Below the pieces are notes generated by a model, which worked only from the letters and a program-made list of their open reading frames with translations, was not told where the DNA came from and did not search any database. From the NCBI GenBank assembly GCA_020055645.1, contig CM034546.1, positions 83,514,001 to 83,578,000 of the forward strand: a stretch of DNA of 64,000 bases, written 5' to 3'. Below, piece after piece: positions 39,106 to 55,835 of this stretch. The position numbers and the translations under genes are program-made. This stretch comes from Tomocerus qinae (taxonomy: Eukaryota > Arthropoda > Collembola > Entomobryomorpha > Tomoceridae). The number at the start of each line of letters is the position of its first letter. The first letter of the stretch is position 1.

Positions 39106-39479
39106 CAAGGGTCTTTGTCACCCCGGGCAAAATAAAAAAAGCCGCCCTTTGAGATACATTTTAAAGTCGATCTTATTAATGCCATTATCAATATAAAAAT
39201 GTATCAAATAATGATTTGAAAATTAATTATAACCGGTAAAATCAATAAGTATATTCAAGCCCTTGGATTATCAGTGTAATGCCACTGACAAGCTAGAACG
39301 TATACAGAACTGTGATTCGGAGGGGGCTAAGATTTCCAATAGATATTTTAATCCTTATAAATAAACGGCTAAAGTCTAATTCCGTAGGTTTGTATGAGGG
39401 AAAGAAAATCCTTTAAAAACAATGTATTTCATAAACTGTTCCGTTACATTCCTGTCAGGAATTCCAAATAGCTTTAAGA

Positions 39480-39895
39480 GCTGCCAGCATTAGGAAGCTG
39501 CCAGCATTAGGAAAGCTGCCAGCAGTAGAAAGCGGCCAGCATTAGCAAGCTGCCAGCATTAGAAAGCTGCCATCATTAGGAAGCTGCCAGCATTAGGAAA
39601 GCTGCCAGCATTAGAAAGCTGCCAGCATTAGCAAGCTGCCAGCATTAGCAAGCTGCCAGCATTAGAAAGCTGCCAGCATTAGAAAGCTGCCAGCATTAGA
39701 AAGCTGCCAGCATTAGAAAGCTGCCAGCATTAGTAAGCTGCCAGCATTAGAAAGCTGCCAGCATTAGGAAGCTGCCAGCATTAGAAAGCTGCCAGCATTA
39801 GAAAGCTACCAGCATTAGGAAGCTGCCAGCATTAGGAAGCTGCCAGCATTAGGAAGCTGCCAGCATTAGCATTCATCCAGCATTAGCATTCATCC
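39480..39895. repeat. 17-bp minisatellite in the left arm
   Basis: About 24 units of gctgccagcattagaaa with gg/gc variants. The inverted counterpart is 54540-54900. Both are followed by the palindromic ggggtacat/atgtacccc-type block and tacca-tcctgccagcattg units. Confidence 0.85.
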
Positions 39896-40574
39896 AGCAT
39901 TACCGTGTAGGAAGGAATAGAGGAGTTTAACAGCGTACCCCATTGCATGTGCATTGGGGTACATTGCTAAACTACTCTATTCCTGCCAGCATTGTACCAT
40001 CCTGCCAGCATTGTACCATCCTGCCAGCATTGTTAAATCCTGCAAGCATTGTAACATCCTGCTAGCTTTGTACAAATGCAGGCAGCATTAGCGTGAATGA
40101 ATACTGTATTATGACTGGGTACATATGTTTGTCTGTTTGTCCACCCCTCAAGAAACATTGGAATTTCTATTAATATCTGGGCTAGTGTAATAAAGACCAT
40201 TAGTAGTTACTCAAAATGTTACGTTTGTTTAGTCCACCTGCACATATTCAGCAACGGAACTTGACCACAGTTTTGGATATGAATTCATAGTACTTCTGAA
40301 TAAATGCACTAAATAAAATTCAATTATTTATTGTCTGACGTAAGACAGTAACTCTAACAATAATATTTTTAGATTATATACTATAATATTTAACTTATAT
40401 ACTATACCTATGCTTTATATATACTCATATACCTATATACTTATACTCATATACCTATATATTTAATATATACTAATAAATCTATATACTTAATATATAC
40501 TAATATACCTATATACTTAATATATACTCATATCTATACTATATTATAATTTACAAGTGTAACATTTTATGTAT

Positions 40575-43500
40575 GTCCGTGTTGAATCCCTATTAGAGCA
40601 TGTTGAATCCCTATTAGAGCATGTTGAATCCCTATTAGAGCATGTTGAATCCCTATTAGAGCATGTTGAATCCCTATTAGAGCATGTTGAATCCCTATTA
40701 GAGCATGTTGAATCCCTATTAGAGCATGTTGAATCCCTATTAGAGCATGTTGAATCCCTATTAGAGCATGTTGAATCCCTATTAGAGCATGTTGAATCCC
40801 TATTAGAGCATGTTGAATCCCTATTAGAGCATGTTGAATCCCTATTAGAGCATGTTGAATCCCTATTAGAGCATGTTGAATCCCTATTAGAGCATGTTGA
40901 ATCCCTATTAGAGCATGTTGAATCCCTATTAGAGCATGTTGAATCCCTATTAGAGCATGTTGAATCCCTATTAGAGCATGTTGAATCCCTATTAGAGCAT
41001 GTTGAATCCCTATTAGAGCATGTTGAATCCCTATTAGAGCATGTTGAATCCCTATTAGAGCATGTTGAATCCCTATTAGAGCATGTTGAATCCCTATTAG
41101 AGCATGTTGAATCCCTATTAGAGCATGTTGAATCCCTATTAGAGCATGTTGAATCCCTATTAGAGCATGTTGAATCCCTATTAGAGCATGTTGAATCCCT
41201 ATTAGAGCATGTTGAATCCCTATTAGAGCATGTTGAATCCCTATTAGAGCATGTTGAATCCCTATTAGAGCATGTTGAATCCCTATTAGAGCATGTTGAA
41301 TCCCTATTAGAGCATGTTGAATCCCTATTAGAGCATGTTGAATCCCTATTAGAGCATGTTGAATCCCTATTAGAGCATGTTGAATCCCTATTAGAGCATG
41401 TTGAATCCCTATTAGAGCATGTTGAATCCCTATTAGAGCATGTTGAATCCCTATTAGAGCATGTTGAATCCCTATTAGAGCATGTTGAATCCCTATTAGA
41501 GCATGTTGAATCCCTATTAGAGCATGTTGAATCCCTATTAGAGCATGTTGAATCCCTATTAGAGCATGTTGAATCCCTATTAGAGCATGTTGAATCCCTA
41601 TTAGAGCATGTTGAATCCCTATTAGAGCATGTTGAATCCCTATTAGAGCATGTTGAATCCCTATTAGAGCATGTTGAATCCCTATTAGAGCATGTTGAAT
41701 CCCTATTAGAGCATGTTGAATCCCTATTAGAGCATGTTGAATCCCTATTAGAGCATGTTGAATCCCTATTAGAGCATGTTGAATCCCTATTAGAGCATGT
41801 TGAATCCCTATTAGAGCATGTTGAATCCCTATTAGAGCATGTTGAATCCCTATTAGAGCATGTTGAATCCCTATTAGAGCATGTTGAATCCCTATTAGAG
41901 CATGTTGAATCCCTATTAGAGCATGTTGAATCCCTATTAGAGCATGTTGAATCCCTATTAGAGCATGTTGAATCCCTATTAGAGCATGTTGAATCCCTAT
42001 TAGAGCATGTTGAATCCCTATTAGAGCATGTTGAATCCCTATTAGAGCATGTTGAATCCCTATTAGAGCATGTTGAATCCCTATTAGAGCATGTTGAATC
42101 CCTATTAGAGCATGTTGAATCCCTATTAGAGCATGTTGAATCCCTATTAGAGCATGTTGAATCCCTATTAGAGCATGTTGAATCCCTATTAGAGCATGTT
42201 GAATCCCTATTAGAGCATGTTGAATCCCTATTAGAGCATGTTGAATCCCTATTAGAGCATGTTGAATCCCTATTAGAGCATGTTGAATCCCTATTAGAGC
42301 ATGTTGAATCCCTATTAGAGCATGTTGAATCCCTATTAGAGCATGTTGAATCCCTATTAGAGCATGTTGAATCCCTATTAGAGCATGTTGAATCCCTATT
42401 AGAGCATGTTGAATCCCTATTAGAGCATGTTGAATCCCTATTAGAGCATGTTGAATCCCTATTAGAGCATGTTGAATCCCTATTAGAGCATGTTGAATCC
42501 CTATTAGAGCATGTTGAATCCCTATTAGAGCATGTTGAATCCCTATTAGAGCATGTTGAATCCCTATTAGAGCATGTTGAATCCCTATTAGAGCATGTTG
42601 AATCCCTATTAGAGCATGTTGAATCCCTATTAGAGCATGTTGAATCCCTATTAGAGCATGTTGAATCCCTATTAGAGCATGTTGAATCCCTATTAGAGCA
42701 TGTTGAATCCCTATTAGAGCATGTTGAATCCCTATTAGAGCATGTTGAATCCCTATTAGAGCATGTTGAATCCCTATTAGAGCATGTTGAATCCCTATTA
42801 GAGCATGTTGAATCCCTATTAGAGCATGTTGAATCCCTATTAGAGCATGTTGAATCCCTATTAGAGCATGTTGAATCCCTATTAGAGCATGTTGAATCCC
42901 TATTAGAGCATGTTGAATCCCTATTAGAGCATGTTGAATCCCTATTAGAGCATGTTGAATCCCTATTAGAGCATGTTGAATCCCTATTAGAGCATGTTGA
43001 ATCCCTATTAGAGCATGTTGAATCCCTATTAGAGCATGTTGAATCCCTATTAGAGCATGTTGAATCCCTATTAGAGCATGTTGAATCCCTATTAGAGCAT
43101 GTTGAATCCCTATTAGAGCATGTTGAATCCCTATTAGAGCATGTTGAATCCCTATTAGAGCATGTTGAATCCCTATTAGAGCATGTTGAATCCCTATTAG
43201 AGCATGTTGAATCCCTATTAGAGCATGTTGAATCCCTATTAGAGCATGTTGAATCCCTATTAGAGCATGTTGAATCCCTATTAGAGCATGTTGAATCCCT
43301 ATTAGAGCATGTTGAATCCCTATTAGAGCATGTTGAATCCCTATTAGAGCATGTTGAATCCCTATTAGAGCATGTTGAATCCCTATTAGAGCATGTTGAA
43401 TCCCTATTAGAGCATGTTGAATCCCTATTAGAGCATGTTGAATCCCTATTAGAGCATGTTGAATCCCTATTAGAGCATGTTGAATCCCTATTAGAGCATG

Positions 43501-44312
43501 TTGAATCCCTATTAGAGCATGTTGAATCCCTATTAGAGCATGTTGAATCCCTATTAGAGCATGTTGAATCCCTATTAGAGCATGTTGAATCCCTATTAGA
43601 GCATGTTGAATCCCTATTAGAGCATGTTGAATCCCTATTAGAGCATGTTGAATCCCTATTAGAGCATGTTGAATCCCTATTAGAGCATGTTGAATCCCTA
43701 TTAGAGCATGTTGAATCCCTATTAGAGCATGTTGAATCCCTATTAGAGCATGTTGAATCCCTATTAGAGCATGTTGAATCCCTATTAGAGCATGTTGAAT
43801 CCCTATTAGAGCATGTTGAATCCCTATTAGAGCATGTTGAATCCCTATTAGAGCATGTTGAATCCCTATTAGAGCATGTTGAATCCCTATTAGAGCATGT
43901 TGAATCCCTATTAGAGCATGTTGAATCCCTATTAGAGCATGTTGAATCCCTATTAGAGCATGTTGAATCCCTATTAGAGCATGTTGAATCCCTATTAGAG
44001 CATGTTGAATCCCTATTAGAGCATGTTGAATCCCTATTAGAGCATGTTGAATCCCTATTAGAGCATGTTGAATCCCTATTAGAGCATGTTGAATCCCTAT
44101 TAGAGCATGTTGAATCCCTATTAGAGCATGTTGAATCCCTATTAGAGCATGTTGAATCCCTATTAGAGCATGTTGAATCCCTATTAGAGCATGTTGAATC
44201 TCTATTAGAGCATGTTGAATCCCTATTAGAGCATGTTGAATCCCTATTAGAGCATGTTGAATCCCTATTAGAGCATGTTGAATCCCTATTAGAGCATGTT
44301 GAATCCCTATTG
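40575..44312. repeat. 21-bp satellite, about 178 copies
   Basis: Head-to-tail copies of a 21-bp unit (gttgaatccctattagag plus cat). Only one variant unit was noticed (c to t near 44200). The length is a multiple of three and no frame stop occurs, so frames over 1,270 codons long are open on both strands (V-E-S-L-L-E-H on plus, N-R-D-S-T-C-S on minus). These are consequences of the repeat and not proteins. Confidence 0.95.
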
Positions 44313-44319
44313 GGAGCTG

Positions 44320-45660
44320 TAAGGAAGGAGGAAGAGACTCCGTGTCGAGAAAAAAGATATATTTTTTTGGACAGTGATAGATCGGGGAAGTAGGGACTAC
44401 ATGTCATTTTGTTAGGAAATGGGAGGAGGCGGGGAAGTGGAACCTACATGACGTGGAAAGCATATTTTATTTGGGGAGGAAGTGAGAAGATGGTTACAAC
44501 ATGCCAATGAAAACAATATATAATATTTCCGGAAAGATTACCCAGAAATTTGGTCAAGCGGGGGCGCAACAAAAGTAATCCAAAAGGGTTTTTTTTTCAA
44601 TTTTTAGCCATCTTTGCAAAAAAATTACATTACTTTGGTCGCGTTACCCGCTTTACCAAAATTATCGATACGTGCTTGGAGTTGGAGACTGCATGTTGAT
44701 AAAATAAATACGTGATTTGGGAAGGGGCAGGGAGTTTGAGACTATATGGTGAAATAATTATGATGTTTGTGAAGGGGCGGGGAGTTAGAGAATACAAGTT
44801 GATGAAAATTTGTTATTTGGGGAGGGGCGTGGAAGCTACATGTCGGTAAAAAAGTTGTTATTTGGGGCGGGGTGATGGAGACTACATGCCGTTGAATCAA
44901 TTGCTATTTGGGAAGGGACGGGTAGTTGGAGGTTACATGTCGGTGAAAAAGTTGTTATTTGGGAGGAGACGGGAAGGTGGAAACTACATGTCGATGTAAC
45001 AATGATGTTATTAGGGTAGCGGCGGGGACAAAAAATTTTTTAATTGGGAAGGGGTTACGAGGTAGAGACTACGTGTCGAGGAAAAATTAATTGTCATTTG
45101 GGAAGGGGAGTGGAGGTGGAGGCTACATGTCGATGTAACAATGATGTTATTTAGGTAGTGGCGGGGAGAAATATTTTTTTAATTGGGAAGGGGTTACGAG
45201 TTAGAGACTACATGTCGATAGAAAAATTATCATTTGGGAAGGGATGTGGAGGCTACATGTCGCTGAAAAATTGTAGTTTTAGAAGGGGCGGGGTGGTGGA
45301 GACTACATGTCGATGAAAAATTTGCTATTTGGGAGGGGGTGGAAAGGTGGGGACTAAATGTCGCTGAAACAATTGTTATTTGGGAAGGGGCTTGGAGATG
45401 GAGGTTTCATATCCACGAAACAATTATGTTATTTGGGAAGGGGCGGGGAGGTGGAGATTAAATGTCGTTGAAAAATTTGTTATTTTGGAGGGGGCGGGAA
45501 GGTGTAGACTATAATATGTCGCTGAAACAATTGTTATTTGGAAAGGGGCTGGGTGGTGGAGTTTTCATGTCGGTGAAAAAGTTGTTATTTAGGAAGGGAC
45601 GGGTAGGTGGAGTTTTCATGTCGGTGAAAAAGTAGGTGTATAAGGAGGTGGAGGGTAGGT
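44320..45660. repeat. Degenerate repeat of about 55-65 bp in Helitron 2
   Basis: Diverged units with gactacatgtcgatgaaa, then ttgttatttgggaaggggcgg. About 20 units. The same unit is present at 38940-39105 and 58000-58025 in Helitron 1. Confidence 0.8.
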
Positions 45661-45851
45661 GGAGACTACTAAATGATTATGAATTGGCCGAGGTTGTATT
45701 GGAAACTGTGGTATGAAATATCAGGGCACTTGAGCTTGGGATTAGTTATACTAGAATCTTTAATTTTGCTTTATGTGAAACAGAGTCCTGTCGTAGGATG
45801 GGCTAACCAGCTAGTACCTATATATTTAATATATACTCATATACCTATATA

Positions 45852-46989
45852 CAGGCTGTCTGATAAATACTTGAAAGTGTTCTAAGCCCTGTAACTCCTG
45901 AACAGAGGCTGCTATGAAAATGAGATAACCACCATAGGAAAGACAATCGTATTTTCAACAAAATGGCCTATAATAATAATTTTTTTAAACCTTCGTTACA
46001 CACATTAAAAATGGGAAAGTCAAAGGCCAATTTCCCTTGTTAAAAATCTCAAATAAACACAAAATTACTTATTTAATTCGCTTCCGTCTTCTGTGATTTT
46101 GGTAACGATTTTTCAACCGAATTGCGATTGAATAAAATGCAGATTGAAGCCATTAAAAACCTGTTGAAATGACATTCTTGGGTTTCAAAGACCACCATTT
46201 AGACTAAGTTGTTGAGTAAAAGTTTGTTAAAGTCACTTGACAAAGCAACAATAATAACTGCACAAATTTTAACAAAGCTGTAAAAACTACTAAAAGTGCT
46301 GGGCCGTTCCAGTCGTTCCTCTAGACACTAGTCCATCGTTTAGGATTCTGATTTACAGTTAAAATTATTTGTCTTGAAGGGCAGCTCTCAGACCAAGTGT
46401 TCTTTTTTCAGAAAATTCTGCATCTCTTAAATGTTGCATTAGTTCATTACCTTTAAATAATGATCATTGGAACCCAATCGGGCTAGCTCAGAAAAATCCA
46501 AAAGGAAATTCATTCTGCATCAGCTACAGACTGATGTAAACAATTTATTAAAGACCTGAGACGTTTGGTTTCCTTCGGACGATAAAATGTCTTTAATTTC
46601 GCTCTTTCAATTTGCCAATGTGGTGTTTAAAGTCTTAATTTTTTCTAAACGTCTAATGTCTAAACCAAGAGGGGTAAAATAGTTTTATAACTATTTTCGT
46701 ACTCTTTTGAATGTTATCTATCACTTTTCATTATCATCGGAAGCTTAAGTTACTATTCCTAAAAGTGTCACCGTTCCAATTATGTCAAGTATACACACAA
46801 TTATAGGCTATTTTGATATTTTTTTGTCGAAATGCTGACCCTGTAATAAGAGTCACCAAAATTATTATTATAACCCATTTTGTTGAAAATACGATTGTCT
46901 TTTCAATGGTGGTTATCTCATTTTCATAGCAGCCTCTGTTCAGGAGTTATAGGACTTAGAACACTTTCATGTAATTATCAGACACCCGG
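45852..46989. mobile_element. Mariner-like nonautonomous element with about 140-bp TIRs
   Basis: Begins caggctgtctgataaatac and ends ...ttatcagacacccgg, flanked by TA. The arms share the block with gttcaggagtta/taactcctgaac, gcagcctctg and aaaatacgattgtctt. No transposase frame over 60 codons. It is inserted in the tatactcatatacc array next to Helitron 2. Confidence 0.7.
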
Positions 46990-47508
46990 TACTTAATATA
47001 TACTCATATACCTATATACTTAATACATACTCATATACCTATATACTTAACATACTCAGAAAAGAGAAAAGAATACAGGGGGCTAAAATTTAATTTCCTT
47101 ATTACTAAAATGAATTTCCAATTGCCAAGAAAATTGTAATGCTTTATAATGTCTTTTAACATAGGTAATTAAAATTTTGTTAGCCATGGATCACTATTTA
47201 CCATTATGTTAAGTTATGGTCGCCATTACCACATAACACAACTCAATTCACACACCACTTTCATTTTTGTCAACAGCAATTTCCCTTTTTGTCAACACCA
47301 CTTCTATAGAGGTTTATTTCTGGCATATTAAATAAATAGTCAAATAAATATGAGGTAATAATCAAATAAGCACTTGGAAAATGTTCTGTTCACAATAAAT
47401 AGTTAAATAACCAGATGTTAAATATGTTCAAATCTATAATCTATCTATAAGTTGAAATGTTTGACAGCAGATAATGATGGGTGACCAGTATACCGCGAAG
47501 ATATGTGG

Positions 47509-47761
47509 CAAAGAAGATGTAATTTTTGGTGGGTTGTCGCTTCGCTTACTCTAAGAATGCTATAAACGTATTATCCCCATGGTGCAGTTTATATTATACC
47601 CACGTGTTTTTACTCACTACAAATAGCCAAGGGTAACAACCAGTAGCCAAGGGTAACGCTAATTCTAAACCAACAAGGAAGAAGTTTGGTAAATTGGTAG
47701 TTGCAGCTATATGTCAATAGCAATAGCAGTCTTATTGTACAAAGACATGTTTTAGTCTATG
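47509..47761. mobile_element. 253-bp insertion in the left arm, empty in the right arm
   Basis: gatatgtgg is present at 47500-47508 and 47762-47770, while the inverted arm near 53800 has a single copy with no insert. So this is a 253-bp insertion with a 9-bp duplication made after the arms were formed. No TIR is obvious; type unknown. Confidence 0.65.
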
Positions 47762-47814
47762 GATATGTGGTATCCATAGGGAGATCAAAGGATATCAGTA
47801 TCTAGGTATACAAA

Positions 47815-47847
47815 AATGACCCGTAAATAGTAACGGGATGACAGCTA
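47815..47847 (+). other. Helitron-type 3' end within the arm
   Basis: cccgt...acggg forms a short hairpin 8 bp before CTAG|T, the standard 3' signature of Helitrons. The same block is inverted at 53719-53752 in the right arm, so it was part of the arm before duplication. The matching 5' end was not located. Confidence 0.45.
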
Positions 47848-48180
47848 GTATTTACTTGATAGTGATGGCTATACTATAATATGCCTTTGTACTACAGTAA
47901 TACCAATTCGCGGGAATGCGTAAATCTGTGGTCATCATTTATCTTGGTCATCGTCAGTATTCATAGTAACATCAGAAATCTATTTAATCAGTTAAAGGTG
48001 ATTTATCAATTAGTTTGTTTGAAAAAATATTGGAAATAGCAAATTTTTGAATAATGTGACTTAAGATTGAAGTCAGTAGCTAACGTTTATTAGATTCGTA
48101 ATAACTATATTTATATCTGAGTTTTGAAATTCTCTATTACAGCTCAAAACTATCATTAGTACACAGAATCGAAAAACTAT

Positions 48181-48196
48181 TGAATGACGTCATTCA
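48181..48196. promoter_or_regulatory. CRE-like palindrome, left arm
   Basis: TGAATGACGTCATTCA, a perfect 16-bp palindrome around the TGACGTCA core bound by CREB/ATF bZIP proteins. It lies 45 bp before the ATG of the arm copy of integrase exon 1 (48242). Confidence 0.6.
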
Positions 48197-48241
48197 TTCA
48201 GTATATTAAATGACACTATATTTTCTCAAGTCAGCAGAACG

Positions 48242-48386
48242 ATGGATGCGAGTTTTAAAGACGAAGTTCATCAAACCCTTAATAACTGTCAAATGGTATT
48301 GCAGCAAGAGATAACTTGTGATTCGCTTTGCTATACCATATCCAAACTAGAATTAATTCTGGAGGCGATACACCGACATGCAGATC
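48242..48386 (+). pseudogene. Partial copy of integrase exon 1 in the left arm
   Basis: Reads M-D-A-S-F-K-D-E-V and stays in step with the right-arm gene for about 48 codons with a few substitutions, up to the end of the arm (agatc). The frame then runs into unrelated core sequence and stops at 48472. It shows that the arm contains the promoter and first part of the integrase gene. Probably nonfunctional. Confidence 0.7.
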
Positions 48387-48533
48387 ATCATTACAATGAA
48401 TTTAATACTTCTATTTTCAATTTCCTCTTAATAGTAATTGTTAATTTCCATAACAATATTTACAAAATTTGATTTAATTAAGTAATTTATTTTTTCAAGC
48501 TATCATGGTACACGTTTTTCCCTTTTGATTCGC

Positions 48534-49370
48534 TTACTTACTTTGACGGAGCTCCAAACCTTCTAAAGCATAATTTACAGCCATTCCTACTTGTTGTAAA
48601 AATTTTTCTTTCGTTAGTAGGGACGGAATAGACAACTGACTGAAGCAAGTTTTAACTTTTAAAAAACCTTCTCCATTTACGACTGTAACTAGCAGTTCTG
48701 AGTCCAAACCTGTCCAACAGGACAACAAGTTCTTTATTCCATTTAGTTCTAGGGAAAAAATGTTTTTTGTTATAATATTGCCATGAAACTATGTATATAA
48801 TATTTGTTTTACGTAAAACATATTAATATCCCAACATTCCCAACCTCCTTCATATCGCCGAACGCTCTCAATTACTGCTTCCAAAACATGTTGGTTGACC
48901 CACAAACTTTATTTCCGAGACCACCATATCCGCACTAATATTAAAGTCGCTCTCTCTCTTACAAATACCTCCGTGATTAGATGGGGCCTTTTCTCTAAAA
49001 ATTGGAACACTGTCGTGTCTTTAACTCCCTATCTTAAAGAGTCTAATTGAGGCTTTCTTTTGTCGATGACATTATGATACATTATTGCCTCCTTTGCAAT
49101 TGAAGCATTCACCTTCGTAATGGGAACATAAAACCCTGAGTGACGTGCCAACCGGCGTATTTACTCTTTCATATCGTCTGAAGGTTCAGTGGTTACCCAG
49201 TCACCCATCTAAAAGAAGTATTATTGATAACTGCAGACTGACTGTCTTACGTAAGACAAAATATATAGCAGAATCAGTTTAGATTACTTACAGCCTAAAA
49301 CATATAAAACAACATTGCCCCCTCCAAAATCGACTTCTAAATACGGTACTGTTGGTTTGCATAGTTCTAT
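48534..49370 (-). pseudogene. HECT-E3-like C-terminal remnant
   Basis: Minus strand. Upstream part V-I-D-K-R-K-P-Q-L-D-S-L-R (about 49040) and F-L-E-K-R-P-H-L resemble the linker of G2E3-like HECT proteins. Near the end, L-L-S-C-W-T-G and V-K-T-C-F-S-Q-L-S-I-P (48600-48728) fit the HECT C-lobe, where the Cys in T-C-F accepts ubiquitin. The stop is at 48534. An exon-like piece at 49284-49370 ends at a GTAAGT donor, with an acceptor near 49205. There is at least one in-frame stop and a frame change, so this copy is broken. HECT C-lobes are known in multicopy transposon-linked genes of animals. It lies downstream of the integrase gene on the same strand. Confidence 0.5.
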
Positions 49371-49537
49371 AACCCGTCCGCCGTAAGTTCGAGTTGAATA
49401 GAGGAGGCAAAATAAAGAAAGAACAATAGCGATTTCATGGCTGAGCGAGCCCATGCTCAGTCGACCATGAAGTCGGTTTTGTTCTTTCTTTGTTTTACCT
49501 TCTCTATTCAACTCGAAGTAACGGCGGACGGGTTATA
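49368..49537. repeat. Foldback hairpin in the HECT-like region
   Basis: tataacccgtccgccgt at the left is mirrored by acggcggacgggttata at the right. The arms are about 75 bp, including ttgaatagaggaggcaaaa/ttttaccttctctattcaa. No coding capacity. Confidence 0.7.
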
Positions 49538-49679
49538 CAATCTGTGCTGTACTCTGCCGCTGCCTCCTTCGACCGACGAGTAATGCGCGGATTGCTAGTG
49601 TATAATATAGAGTACATATATGTAGAAACATAGGTTAAAAGATTTTCCAAGCTATTATTATAATAAAAATAATTTCTAC

Positions 49680-49695
49680 TGAATGACGTCATTCA
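49680..49695. promoter_or_regulatory. CRE-like palindrome ahead of the HECT-like gene
   Basis: Exact copy of TGAATGACGTCATTCA. On the minus strand it lies just after the end of the integrase gene (49741) and before the HECT-like remnant, where a promoter would be expected. Confidence 0.6.
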
Positions 49696-49784
49696 TAATT
49701 GTCTAGCATTTATTTAAAATAAATAAAAATTCAATGTTTATTATAACAGCTGTAATGCTTGTAAAAACACGTCTACGCCAAAAT

Positions 49785-49802
49785 TATTTGATACTCTGTT
49801 AT
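49785..49802. repeat. 18-bp target duplication of the retroposon
   Basis: tatttgatactctgttat, identical to 51721-51738. Confidence 0.85.
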
Positions 49803-51720
49803 TATTATTATTATTATTATTTATTGGCTTCTTTCAAGACGATGTGACCTTTGGTCTTTACGTCCTATACAGTGGTTTTTAACAATGCATGATGATGACA
49901 TTTTTGGTATACATTACATTAACAGCAAATAATTGCATAAAAAAGGCTACTAATATAATATATGGTTTGGAGTTGGGTTGAGGCATGTAGATGAATAGCG
50001 TACTGCACAATAAAAACTAACGGTACGTAATAAAATGTTACATAATGATGAATGTTACATATATCATAATCGGACGTTTTGAATCTTTAAAATGATTTAC
50101 ATTTTAACTCTTTAAAATGACATACATTTAGGATTTTTAAAATGACTTACATTTTGGATCTTTAAAATGACATACATTTAGGATTTTTAAAATGACTTAC
50201 ATTTTGGATCTTTAAAATGACTTACATTTTGACTCTTTAAACTGACTTACATTTTGATTCTTTAAAATGACTCTTTAAAATGACTTACATTTTGACTCTT
50301 TAAAATGACTCTTTAAAATGACTTACATTTTGACTCTTTAAAATGACTCTTTAAAATGACTAACATTTTGACTCTTTAAAATGACTCTTTAAAATGACTT
50401 ACATTTTAACTCTTTAGAATGACTTAAATTTTAACTCTTTAAGATGACATACATTTAGGATTTTTAAAATGACTTACATTTTGGATCTTTAAAATGACTT
50501 ACATTTTGACTCCTTTAAATGACATACATTTCGACTCTTTAAAACGACATACATTTTGACTCTTTAAAATGACACATTTTGACTCTTTAAAATGACATAC
50601 ATTTTGACTCTTTAAAATGACACATTTTGACTCTTTAAAATGACACATTTTGACTCTTTAAAATGACACATTTTGACTCTTTAAAATGACACATTTTAAC
50701 TCTTTAAATTGACAAACGTTTTGACTCTCTTAGGTGACATACATTTTGACTCTTTAAAATGACCCTTTAAAATGACTTACATTTTAACTCTTTAAATTGA
50801 CATACATTTTGGATTTTTAAAATGACATACATTTTGGATTTTTAAAATGACTTACATTTTGGATCTTTAAAATGACTTACATTTTAACTCTTTAAAATGA
50901 CTTACATTTTGGCTCTTTAAAATGACAAACATTTTGGCTCTTTAAACTGACTTCCTTTTTAACTCTTTAAAATGACTCTTTAAAATGACTTACATTTTGA
51001 TTCTTTAAAATGACTTACATTTTAACTCTTTAAAATGACTTACATTTTGACTTTTTAAAATGACTTACATTTTGATTCTTTAAAATGACTTACATTTTGA
51101 CTTTTTAAATTGGCATAGGTTGCATTTTACGGTTTATAAACTGGTGTTACATTTGGACATTTAAAATGCAAATTTGCTTTTCACGGTGTATAACTGTGTA
51201 TAATTTTTTGAAGTTAATAGAATTTATCATAGAACTCATGGTTTCTTTGAGAAAATTAAGAAGTTGAATGCATCAAATAAAGTATGTAGGTTACCAACTT
51301 TATTTCGTTCTCACGACTTCCAATGTTCTGGTGTCAGCAATTCCGGTGTCCTTGTACGGAATATAATCTCGTCTTGTGTTATTTATATCTTGTGTGTAAG
51401 GTTTGCATTGCACTTGCACTCGTTGTTCACATGATAGATTTGTCTGGAGTAGGATTTTTGCTTATGTAATGATGAGCTGTCGTTTCCGTTACAATAAATG
51501 TATAAATTTATATTTAATTAAATAGAAATCTAACAAAATTTATCATTATACAAATAAGAGAAAGACTGTTTATACTATATGATGTTATAGAGTATTAAAT
51601 TGCGAATACAATGATATAAATAAATACCAATTAAGTTTAGTTTTAATACTAGAAATAGCCAATAATTGAAGAGAGTAGTAAAATAGATGTTTGCAGTCAC
51701 ACTGCCTCAACCCAACTCCC
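49803..51720 (-). mobile_element. Noncoding retroposon with (AAT)n tail and internal minisatellite
   Basis: Perfect 18-bp duplications flank it, and on the minus strand it ends with AATAAATAATAATAAT, so it was inserted by target-primed reverse transcription. No ORF. The centre is a 25-bp minisatellite. The 5' part (51120-51720) and 3' part (49803-50060) are unique. A long SINE or a decayed LINE derivative; type not resolved. Confidence 0.65.
50060..51115. repeat. 25-bp minisatellite with 17-bp short units
   Basis: Units of ctctttaaaatgacttacat plus tttga, mixed with shorter tttaaaatgact units. About 45 units, diverged. Confidence 0.85.
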
Positions 51721-52889
51721 TATTTGATACTCTGTTATGGTTGAGGTTGGCTAAGTAACTTTGCAAAATAGGATTTGCTGATTGCTCTGGGGAGAGGGGG
51801 TTTGTTAGGTCATCATCATCATCATCATCATCATCAAAGTTTTGTAGATCCGACAAGTTGTTGCACATAAAATAAATGTTGATCCGATCATCCTACAAAA
51901 AACAAGTTGTTACAGTTAAAACATTTAATTTAGATGGTTATGGATACCAGCATTATGAGACAGGAGAATATACATCTGTGATATCGAGAACCATTCCATT
52001 AGGTGGCAGATGTAGTAGCATTAATTGACGGGGCGAAAAATTATTTTCGGTTGAAATAGGATGACTGTTCCATGCATTCATCAAAACTTCTAAATGATTA
52101 TTAATTCTTGGCAAGAAAACTTTGTGAAGTATGTACAAATGCTTCTCATTGTCAATATTCAATTGTCCATTATCTTCCAATGTATTAAATATATTTTTAT
52201 AAAATCGGGTACATCCATATGTCACATCTTTCCAGTGTCTCTCGATTCTGTTCAAATAATAAGCAATAGGTGACTTATTATGCTCGACGTCGAGCAAATA
52301 TAAAATAAATTTTGTAAACTACCTTTGATTGTGCACTGAACGGCCACAAATGTGACTTCATCGCATCTTTCCTCGCCTCTCAATTATAAAATTTGGTATG
52401 AGTATGTTCTCTTTCCCTTTGTCTGATCTCGTTCTATACGGTATTCCATATTTCTCTACGCCTCTCATAAACGATAATAAATTAGTGTCCGCTTTGTTGT
52501 CATTGCTGGCATCTAAGTAGCAGTTCTACTTTTCCCATCAATGCAACATGTAATAACGATTCCCCACCTTTAAAAAATAAAAGTTTTTCTATGCATTCAT
52601 TTTATTCAATTATAACACTTATTCCGACTTTTGATAGATGTTAACAATTCAATTTTATATTTAACATACCTAATCAATTTCATGTTGGTATCTAAATGCC
52701 ACATCTCGTTGCTATACTTAACAAAGTATACTCGTCGAACAATAGCACGGTTTTGACTTCTTCTTAAAATGACACCGTCAGGGTCAGCGGATCCCATTCC
52801 TTCCTCCATTAAGAAGAAATCCTTTCATACGCTTGTAGCCGGTCCTCAGAGGAAATGTCAGAATAAGAATGAGCAACCTGAGAGGAGAA

Positions 52890-52905
52890 TGAATGACGTC
52901 ATTCA
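52890..52905. promoter_or_regulatory. CRE-like palindrome in integrase intron 1
   Basis: Exact TGAATGACGTCATTCA within the 70-bp intron of the integrase-like gene. Confidence 0.55.
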
Positions 52906-53370
52906 CGGCACAATGATTAATAGATATTTGCATTAGCGAGAACATACTGAAATTCCATTTTCACTAAGACGTCGAAATATTGTGTCGCGAGAAACTCCAA
53001 ATAGTTTGGCGATTTGCGGTACGTGAAAGTTTAAACTTAACAAGTACTCAATGTTTTCACAAGGAATTTGTATTTTTGGTCGCCCTCTGTTTTTTCCTTC
53101 TAAGGACGTAACTTCCGTGTTCAATATTTCGACAGCTTTTTCTACAAATATAATAACATTGAGCCAAGAAATCTCAATAAGATCTGTATGTTGGTGTATC
53201 GCCTCCAGAATTAGTTCTAGTTTGGATATGGTATAGCAAAGCGAATCACAAATTATCTCTTGCTGCAATACCATTTGACAGTTATTAAGGGTTTGATGAA
53301 CTTCGTCTTTAAAACTCGCATCCATCGTTCTGCTGACTTGAGAAAATATAGTGTCATTTAATATACTGAA

Positions 53371-53386
53371 TGAATGACGTCATTCA
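53371..53386. promoter_or_regulatory. CRE-like palindrome in the integrase promoter
   Basis: Exact TGAATGACGTCATTCA, 45 bp upstream of the integrase ATG on the minus strand. Arm counterpart of 48181-48196. Confidence 0.65.
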
Positions 53387-54539
53387 ATAGTTTTTCGATT
53401 CTGTGTACTAATGATAGTTTTGAGCTGTAATAGAGAATTTCAAAACTCAGATATAAATATAGTTATTACGAATCTAATAAACGTTAGCTACTGACTTCAA
53501 TCTTAAGTCACATTATTCAAAAAATTGCTATTTCCAAAATTTTTTCAAACAAACTAATTGATAAATCACCTTTAACTGATTAAATAGATTTCTGATGTTA
53601 CTATGAATACTGACGATGACCAAGATAAATGATGACCACAGATTTACGCATTCCCGCGAATTGGTATTACTGTAGTACAAAGGCATATTATAGTATAGCC
53701 ATAACTATCAAGTAAATACTAGCTGTCATCCCGCTACTATTTACGGGTCATTTTTGTATACCTAGATACTGATATCCTTTGATCTCCCTATGGATACCAC
53801 ATATCTTCGCGCCATACTGGTCACCCATCATTATCTGCTGTCAAACATTTCAACTTATAGATAGATTATAGATTTGAACATATTTAACATCTGGTTATTT
53901 AACTATTTATTGTGAACAGAACATTTTCCAAGTGCTTATTTGATGTATTACCTCATAATATTTATTTGACTATTTATTTAATATGCCAGAAATAAACCTA
54001 TATAGAAGTGGTGTTGACAAAAAGGGAAATTGCTGTTGACAAAAAGGGAAATTGCTGTTGACAAAAAAGAAAGTGGTGTGTGAATTGGGTTGTGTTATGT
54101 GGTAATGGCGGCCATATATATATATTGGGTAATGCCATTATACAAAATTAATGATTTTTTGTATCAATGCGTTAACTTTTTGCTAACTAGTGATCCATGG
54201 CTAACAAAATTTTAATTACCTATGTTAAAAGACATTATAAAGCATTATAATTTTCTTGGCAATTGGAAATTCATTTTAGTAATAAGGAAATTAAATTTTA
54301 GCCCCCTGTATTCTTTTCTCTTTTCTGAGTATGTTAAGTATATAGGTATATGAGTATGTATTAAGTATATAGGTATATGAGTCATTTGTACAAAGCTGGC
54401 AGGATGTTACAATGCTTGCAGGATTTAACAATGCTGGCAGGATGGTACAATGCTGGCAGGAATAGAGTAGTTTAGCAATGTACCCCAATGCACATGCAAT
54501 GGGGTACGCTGTTAAACTCCTCTATTCCTTCCTACACGG

Positions 54540-54900
54540 TAATGCTGGATGAACGCTAATGCTGGATGAATGCTAATGCTGGCAGCTTTCTAATGCTGGC
54601 AGCTTCCTAATGCTGGCAGCTTTCTAATGCTGGCAGCTTTCTAATGCTGGCAGCTTTCTAATGCTGGCAGCTTTCTAAGGCTGGCAGCTTCCTAATGCTG
54701 GCAGCTTCCTAATGCTGGCAGCTTCCTAATGCTGGCAGCTTTCTAATGCTGGCAGCTTTCTAATGCTGGCAGCTTTCTAATGCTGGCAGCTTTCTAATGC
54801 TGGCAGCTTCCTAATGCTGGCAGCTTTCTAATGCTGGCAGCTTCCTAATGCTGGCAGCTTTCTAATGCTGGCAGCTTCCTAATTCTGCCTGCATCATAAA
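54540..54900. repeat. 17-bp minisatellite in the right arm
   Basis: About 20 units reading ttctaatgctggcagct, the inverse of 39480-39895. The unit number differs from the left arm. Confidence 0.85.
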
Positions 54901-55454
54901 GCTGCCTGAAATTCCTGCCAGGAATGTAACGGAACAGTTTATGAAATACGTTGTTTTTAAAGGATTTCATAAAGAACCTCCGGATCTATTTTTGCGACTA
55001 ATCTCCCCTCATAGGTTTGTTTGTACTTCCGTGTGTTGATTTGCCGTAATTCTAAAACGCAGCCAAGCACATAATAACGCACATAATGAGACAGTACGCA
55101 GTGGCTGTAGTGGCTGTACGCAATTATGCACTGCGCGGTCTATAGTATCCTACGACTTACAAGCCACAAAAAATTTCATAACAGGAGGAATGCATGCATT
55201 CTGTATGAAAATTCTTCCAGCTTTCAGTGCGCTCAAGATTTCTATTACTTCACGTGCGGGAAAATTTAATTCGGCCATTTACATTGATGTTTTGAATTTT
55301 GAATTGGTTTAATAAAACTTAGATCCCCAAAAAAGTGAGTCAGTTTTCGATTTAGTAAAGCAAGTTTTGCACCGTTTAAGGCAGTCAGCAGGTTTCAAAA
55401 GACTGTTTTTGCCACAAATGGGGACGCTGCTAGGTAACCAGCAAAAATTATCAT

Positions 55455-55835
55455 AGAGGGTGAATCATACATAGGGAGCTCCGTCGTACAGTTAAGAAGA
55501 GATGTGGGGTTTGGAGCGGATCGCGCCATTTTTGTCAGTAGAGGAGTACCATGGTGCTCACCACCAACAACTAGCTTGACTGCCCACTGCCCACCACAAT
55601 ATGTGAGCCGTCCATTATAATGTAATGAATTCGAAAATGTTCGAGGAGGCTTCTTTCTGTGCCCTTGGTAGATCACTGTATGGCATTATAATGGACGGCT
55701 CACATATTGTGGTGGGCAGTCAGGGTATTTGGTGGTGATCACCTTGGTACTCCTCTACTGATAAAAATGGCGCGATCCGCTCCAAACCCTACATCTCTTC
55801 TTAACTGTACGACGGAGCTCCCCATGTATGGGGTG
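55455..55835. mobile_element. Foldback element with about 160-bp arms
   Basis: catacatagggagctccgtcgtacag...cacaatatgtgagccgtcc is mirrored at 55685-55830. The loop is about 55 bp. Few mismatches, so fairly young. No duplication or gene seen. Confidence 0.7.

Follow-up and report, generated by a model that had tools for sequence, protein, structure and literature searches.

The inverted arms in this stretch of the Tomocerus qinae genome belong to a DNA transposon, and the window (the whole stretch analysed, 64,000 nt; assembly GCA_020055645.1, contig CM034546.1, positions 83,514,001-83,578,000 of the forward strand) holds a rearranged copy of it. The family is, with high confidence, of the IS3EU kind, an assignment set by its ends, target-site duplications, and transposase matches rather than by a tree.

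Ends, target-site duplications, and empty sites

The sequence-only reading had proposed that the element is a DNA transposon bearing an rve-type integrase, and had advised a search with the right arm for further copies. We carried out that search in the 334-Mb genome containing the window and recovered three more full copies with consistent ends and duplications. Copy A lies at C1:102911735-102927617 and carries ~5 kb of inserted DNA in one of its arms; B, of 10,689 bp, is at C1:124690938-124701626, and C, of 10,614 bp, is at C5:6139464-6150077. Agreement among several copies in their ends and in the 6-bp length of their duplications supports the proposal; the limits first drawn for the window element, 39407 and 54968, were 14 and 45 bp short and are corrected in Table 1. 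Copies A, B, and C start with TATGAGGGGAGATTAGTCGCAAAAAT and finish with its inverse, and the termini TATGAGG...CCTCATA are present at both ends of these three and of the window copy, giving TA..TA ends as in IS3EU. All four copies with both ends aligned are flanked by exact 6-bp repeats (GGTTTG in the window, CAACAT for A, GTTTGA for B, and CAAATG for C). A and B are 99.4% identical over 9.7 kb, B and C are 97.6% identical over 10.75 kb, and their insertion sites are unrelated; judged by such near-identical copies at unrelated sites, the family is recently mobile.

When up to three mismatches were allowed, the 26-bp terminus occurred at 19 places genome-wide, compared with 0 for a reversed control. 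These places comprise the six ends of A, B, and C, the right end of the window copy, and 12 others; the left end of the window copy is absent from them, and a stretch has been lost just inside its TATGAGGG. A possible older fifth end pair, copy J, lies at C1:84542599 and 84561363, 18.8 kb apart, and reading of its flanks gave a 7-bp repeat, AGTTATA. Two ends on C3, 36 kb apart, had no matching flanking repeat on reading and were excluded from the copy count.

We then joined the flanks of each copy after removing the element and one duplication, and these 394-base queries revealed paralogous empty sites for three of the four full copies (window, A, and B). For copy B, two paralogous loci aligned over 394/394 bases at 93%, with a gapless junction in both, and for copy A, one locus aligned over 363/394 bases at 94%, with a seamless junction. 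For the window copy, the joined flanks align with dispersed repeats; among the matches listed, at least 31 of the 38 non-self ones cross the junction, seven reach the left part only, and two more are the window's own flanks. Four of these loci were aligned base by base, and all are uninterrupted with a single GGTTTG. The genome search with the joined flanks of copy C found no empty paralogue. The pattern at B, the window, and A is that left by insertion with a 6-bp stagger. The gene interrupted by copy B is DUF6606-like (E=7e-18 when its flanks are joined); two paralogues of it, 27 and 51 kb off, are unbroken over the 394 bases compared.

These data bear on the view that one local inverted duplication lies beside an ordinary integrase gene and that there is no transposon. 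The head-to-head doubling of the arm and transposase start in the window is what such a duplication would leave, but it is refuted for the family by full copies that end alike, lie at unrelated sites, and come with 6-bp duplications and empty sites; as a general account it is hardly credible, and it holds for the extra first exon of the window copy only.

Table 1. Features of the transposon copy in the window (positions are those of the window)
Feature	Position	Strand	Remarks
Whole transposon copy	39393..55013		15,621 bp; ends TATGAGGG...CCCCTCATA
Left target-site duplication	39387..39392		GGTTTG, 6 bp; from flank alignment and empty paralogous sites
Right target-site duplication	55014..55019		GGTTTG, 6 bp; from flank alignment and empty paralogous sites
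Left arm, outer part	39393..40539	+	TIR end (stretch missing directly after TATGAGGG) and 17-bp minisatellite
Left-arm 17-bp minisatellite	39479..39869	+	22.9 units
Left-arm DNA without match to copy B	40540..46989	.	includes 21-bp satellite
Left arm, inner part	46990..48386	+	runs into transposase start
Palindrome TGAATGACGTCATTCA, P1 type	48181..48196		left arm
Orphan duplicate of transposase residues 1-48	48242..48385	+	exon block 1
HECT-like gene remnant	48555..49208	-	three C-terminal blocks, two with a stop
Palindrome, P3 type	49680..49695
Insertion within transposase 3′ end	49803..51720		partly 25-bp tandem repeats
Transposase gene	51722..53325	-	damaged: frame shifts, stops
Transposase blocks	53325-52948, 52877-52669, 52566-52340, 52249-51956, 51892-51722	-
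Palindrome, P2 type	52890..52905		first intron, by comparison with copy B
Right arm	53181..55013	-	1,833 bp, first 48 codons outwards to end; includes 17-bp minisatellite
Palindrome, P1 type	53371..53386		upstream of transposase start
Right-arm 17-bp minisatellite	54573-54887		18.5 units

Genes and arms of the family

In copy B, the transposase is encoded in five blocks on the + strand (124693111-124694807), and a HECT-like gene in seven blocks on the - strand (124697559-124695163) is convergent with it; the block borders were set by reading of the sequence, not from transcripts. The two genes are likewise convergent in A, C, and F, the last an older copy at C1:19.467 Mb with ~86% identity to B. 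With the genes lying between the terminal inverted repeats (TIRs), one facing each arm, the arms would act as their promoters.

Blocks 1-4 of the B transposase, when joined, matched Pfam rva_4 (E=6e-62, profile positions 1-180 of 194). The NCBIfam models IS481 (E=1e-7; 31.6 bits, model cut-off 224) and IS3 (E=1.5e-6; 27.7 bits, model cut-off 160) matched far below their cut-offs, and no other transposase-core family was matched. A zinc-finger model was not among the Pfam matches of the joined blocks, in keeping with IS3EU transposases, which are described in the part of PMC10045372 available to us as related to IS3 and IS481 and without the HHCC motif. Upstream of the core, a helix-turn-helix model and other Pfam models matched, all below cut-off, and the transposase probably has an N-terminal helix-turn-helix. 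The integrase-like gene seen earlier in the window was borne out by rva_4, which three of four transposase pieces matched, two of them above cut-off; with a GT-AG intron removed, D..D-34-E can be read there, with one stop inside. Across the genome, rva_4 matches (10, with all 20 candidates scored) fall at five loci, namely A, B, C, the window, and F. A search of solved structures with the transposase gave no relative, its one match (E=2.4) being an unrelated protein, and an AlphaFold model of exon block 1, built on an alignment of two sequences, had a mean pLDDT of 46, too poor for use. The rve-type DDE transposase would act at the TATGAGGG ends, and joining of these ends to target DNA staggered by 6 bp would yield the 6-bp duplications.

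The transposase blocks of A, B, and C are protein-identical. All three copies apparently have the same frame shift, located after the second catalytic residue and before the third, so that a working transposase is at most predicted for any copy. A frame shift common to young copies suggests mobilisation in trans; A, B, and C may owe their movement to another copy.

Four joined HECT blocks of copy B matched Pfam HECT above cut-off (E=2.2e-8), with the best stretch covering only positions 268-304 of 306. This C-terminal stretch contains a TCF motif, in which we assume the Cys to be catalytic. Compared with B, the HECT blocks have frame breaks in A and C, and in A also one stop. The gene is a candidate passenger ubiquitin ligase; neither a HECT gene in IS3EU nor a link between HECT and such a transposon was found in the papers searched, and relatives of this family may be in Repbase already.

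The inverted arms that had been noticed proved real and far beyond chance. Self-alignment of the window gave blocks out to the ends: 47762-48386 with 53181-53805 (98.7% over 625 bp), 47002-47508 with 53797-54382 (84.8%), 39537-40078 with 54383-54904 (92.3%), and 39406-39834 with 54540-54967 (91.4%). The 17-bp minisatellite ascribed to the arms is likewise present in both. The TIRs of the family are ~2.1 kb and minisatellite-filled (in copy B, 124690938-124693039 on the transposase side and 124699456-124701626 on the other); such long TIRs of tandem repeats are a foldback architecture, which is an architecture and not a transposase family. In the window, nested DNA lengthens the left arm to ~9 kb, and the 21-bp satellite there (40580-44311) has 177.7 units at 99% identity.

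Several other repeats lie in or near these arms. A segment of ~1.1 kb (45850-46988) with inverted ends of ~100 bp by eye has the look of a small transposon inserted into the left arm. The right arm holds a 190-bp dispersed repeat (53888-54079; 22 genome matches listed, 87-94%), and the 22 arm-search matches confined to query positions 707-898 represent this repeat and were rejected as element copies. Just outside the element, 55466-55830 is self-complementary (80% over 379 columns) and is a hairpin-like MITE candidate. A second such candidate is at 49365-49540. TTAGG arrays are dispersed over contigs. In copy D (C2:45154314-45158805), the 17-bp arm minisatellite is expanded to ~4.5 kb, and neither the transposase nor the HECT blocks are matched; this copy appears to be a foldback derivative becoming satellite.

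Head-to-head rearrangement of the window copy

The arms had been described as ending near codon 48 of the integrase-like gene. This is correct for the window copy, in which residues 1-48 are duplicated, but not as a family trait: in A, B, and C, the transposase-side arm comes to an end 72 bp before the start codon, at a point 10 bp outside the P1 palindrome described below. Mapped on copy B from left to right, the window copy begins with an arm and 48 transposase codons and then passes directly to the HECT gene at its 3′ end. Two short reversed pieces from upstream of that gene come next, then the reversed transposase, whose start is joined to a second arm. The window copy has thus been rearranged head to head; the exon-start doubling is peculiar to it, and the extra first exon arose as a by-product of the rearrangement and is not part of the family plan.

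The inner arms of the window copy, 98.7% identical to each other, are ~87-88% identical to the transposase-side arm of B, and 92% identical to the HECT-side arm of B over 0.4 kb common to both B arms; its outer arms differ by 8-9%. The higher mutual identity of the inner arms indicates that the doubling is young and that the arms have exchanged sequence. The closer match to the HECT-side arm (92% vs 88%) also indicates exchange between arms, and it is not certain which arm each piece came from. The window copy is best explained as a defective descendant in which an inverted copy of the transposase-side half took the place of the HECT-side half, so that both arms run into the transposase start, and gap repair or recombination between inverted arms would be a plausible route. 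An insertion of ~1.9 kb in the 3′ end of its transposase (outer limits 49785-51740) has direct-repeat flanks, TTTGATACTCTGTTAT, by eye.

The layout is known from the assembly and not from reads, and long inverted repeats and satellites assemble poorly, which would allow the head-to-head arrangement to be an assembly error joining two copies. We consider this unlikely, given that GGTTTG stands on both outer ends and that the joined flanks are contiguous elsewhere.

The 16-bp palindrome and comparison with known transposons

Six TGACGTCA sites, a motif that we take to be the CRE core, are present in the window: four lie within a 16-bp palindrome in the element, and two are bare and outside it (15906 and 63118). 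The CRE-like palindrome previously noted in each arm does occur once per arm, but as part of the 16-bp palindrome TGAATGACGTCATTCA, of which two more lie between the arms. In copy B, the four sites are upstream of the transposase start (P1), in the first intron (P2), between the gene ends (P3), and beside the other arm (P4). The 334-Mb genome has 19 exact occurrences of TGAATGACGTCATTCA, and every one is in a family copy (the window, A, B, and C have four each, F has one, and G, a rearranged older copy on C7, has two); the reversed control occurs once, and the number expected under a dinucleotide model derived from the window is 0.12. Allowing one mismatch added 14 places, none of them inside the family copies fetched, and gave 14 for the reversed control, including its exact one.

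The flanks of P1-P4 are unrelated except at P3 and P4, both of which belong to one inverted repeat of 89 bp (93% identity) and are not independent; A, B, and C, being near-identical, count as one. In copy G, all 16 bases of P1 are exact though the surroundings are 76% identical to B. Copy F has lost P1, one of its two comparable sites, which counts against constraint, and copy D has no exact palindrome, its aligned parts not reaching the four places. The background chance that a homologous 16-mer is unchanged relative to B is 0.32 in the window, 0.23 in F, and 0.11 in G; with such background survival of 11 to 32%, survival of the palindrome alone is modest evidence. No report of TGAATGACGTCATTCA was found in the literature searched. 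Judging from its distribution among the sequences, we regard the palindrome as a genuine site, specific to the element and under some constraint; a regulator encoded by the element or by the host probably binds it.

The palindrome may be an ordinary host CRE (an ATF/CREB-type site) recruited for expression, a reading with a substantial chance of being right, if somewhat short of even. It includes TGACGTCA, and one site is ~60 bp upstream of the transposase start; against this, the identity spans 16 bp and not 8, two of the four copy B sites lie elsewhere, one within an intron and one where the 3′ ends of the two genes face each other, and the exact 16-mer is found in this transposon family only. 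We tentatively raise another possibility, with considerable doubt: an IS3EU lineage with its own HECT ubiquitin ligase, in which a private palindrome, placed at the two arm boundaries, within intron 1, and between the genes, would serve the element's own helix-turn-helix protein as operator or synapsis site. If true, this would be a built-in regulatory grammar, one not met in the literature for an integrase-type eukaryotic transposon. The candidate protein-binding site is unique to the family within the 334-Mb genome.

The sequence-only reading knew of no named superfamily with this plan. In the part of PMC10045372 available to us, IS3EU elements always have TA..TA ends and usually 6-bp duplications, and the published tree places them beside IS481-type elements. 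The ends, duplications, and transposase of the present family fit IS3EU, and no new superfamily is needed. A new superfamily sharing 6-bp duplications and TA ends with IS3EU by chance would accommodate the ~2 kb minisatellite arms and the HECT-like gene, which are undescribed for IS3EU in the passages available, and the weak similarity to the IS481 and IS3 models. This is very unlikely, as both published IS3EU hallmarks (TA..TA and 6 bp) are present and the core matches rva_4, IS481, and IS3 only, in line with the place of IS3EU in that tree (PMC10045372).

Other named groups fit less well. From the same source, as far as available, IS481EU has a related transposase core but TNT..AYA ends and duplications of ~4, 15, or 25 bp, compared with TA..TA and 6 bp here, and Ginger1 and Ginger2 have 4- or 5-bp duplications (PMC10045372). 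For Polintons, the 6-bp length fits and the gene content does not. Polintons encode a protein-primed polymerase and virion-type genes, and no polymerase or capsid model was above cut-off in the 17 copy B pieces scanned singly (a set without a few overlapping and minisatellite frames). Mutator-like elements have a transposase of a different family, and their ends differ from those found here. Their long TIRs resemble the present arms in being said to contain promoters and transposase-binding sites (PMC3310237).

Foldback-type Tetris elements share long tandem-repeat TIRs and many rearranged forms, but are apparently nonautonomous with TIR repeats of ~220 bp, as opposed to the rve-type transposase gene and 17-bp repeats here (PMC4079207). 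The foldback-type plan is already known from other elements (PMC4079207); the present family is an integrase-type transposon with that architecture and illustrates how such arms yield head-to-head rearranged copies.

IS3EU is a known, minor, and little-studied superfamily, and the literature passages at hand contain no experimental study of its mechanism. The near-identical copies, clean duplications, empty sites, candidate ligase, and candidate protein-binding site make the regulation of such elements testable. The present family resembles IS3EU and GingerRoot in its TA..TA ends, 6-bp duplications, integrase-like transposase without HHCC, and second gene in the opposite orientation, as in TET-carrying fungal IS3EU, whose second gene, an alpha-kinase, lies opposite to the transposase (PMC10045372 and PMC12730594, in part). 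Compared with IS3EU as described in those passages, it is unusual in its very long, repeat-filled arms of ~2 kb, its ubiquitin-ligase-like passenger gene in place of the alpha-kinase, and its 16-bp palindrome at four sites.
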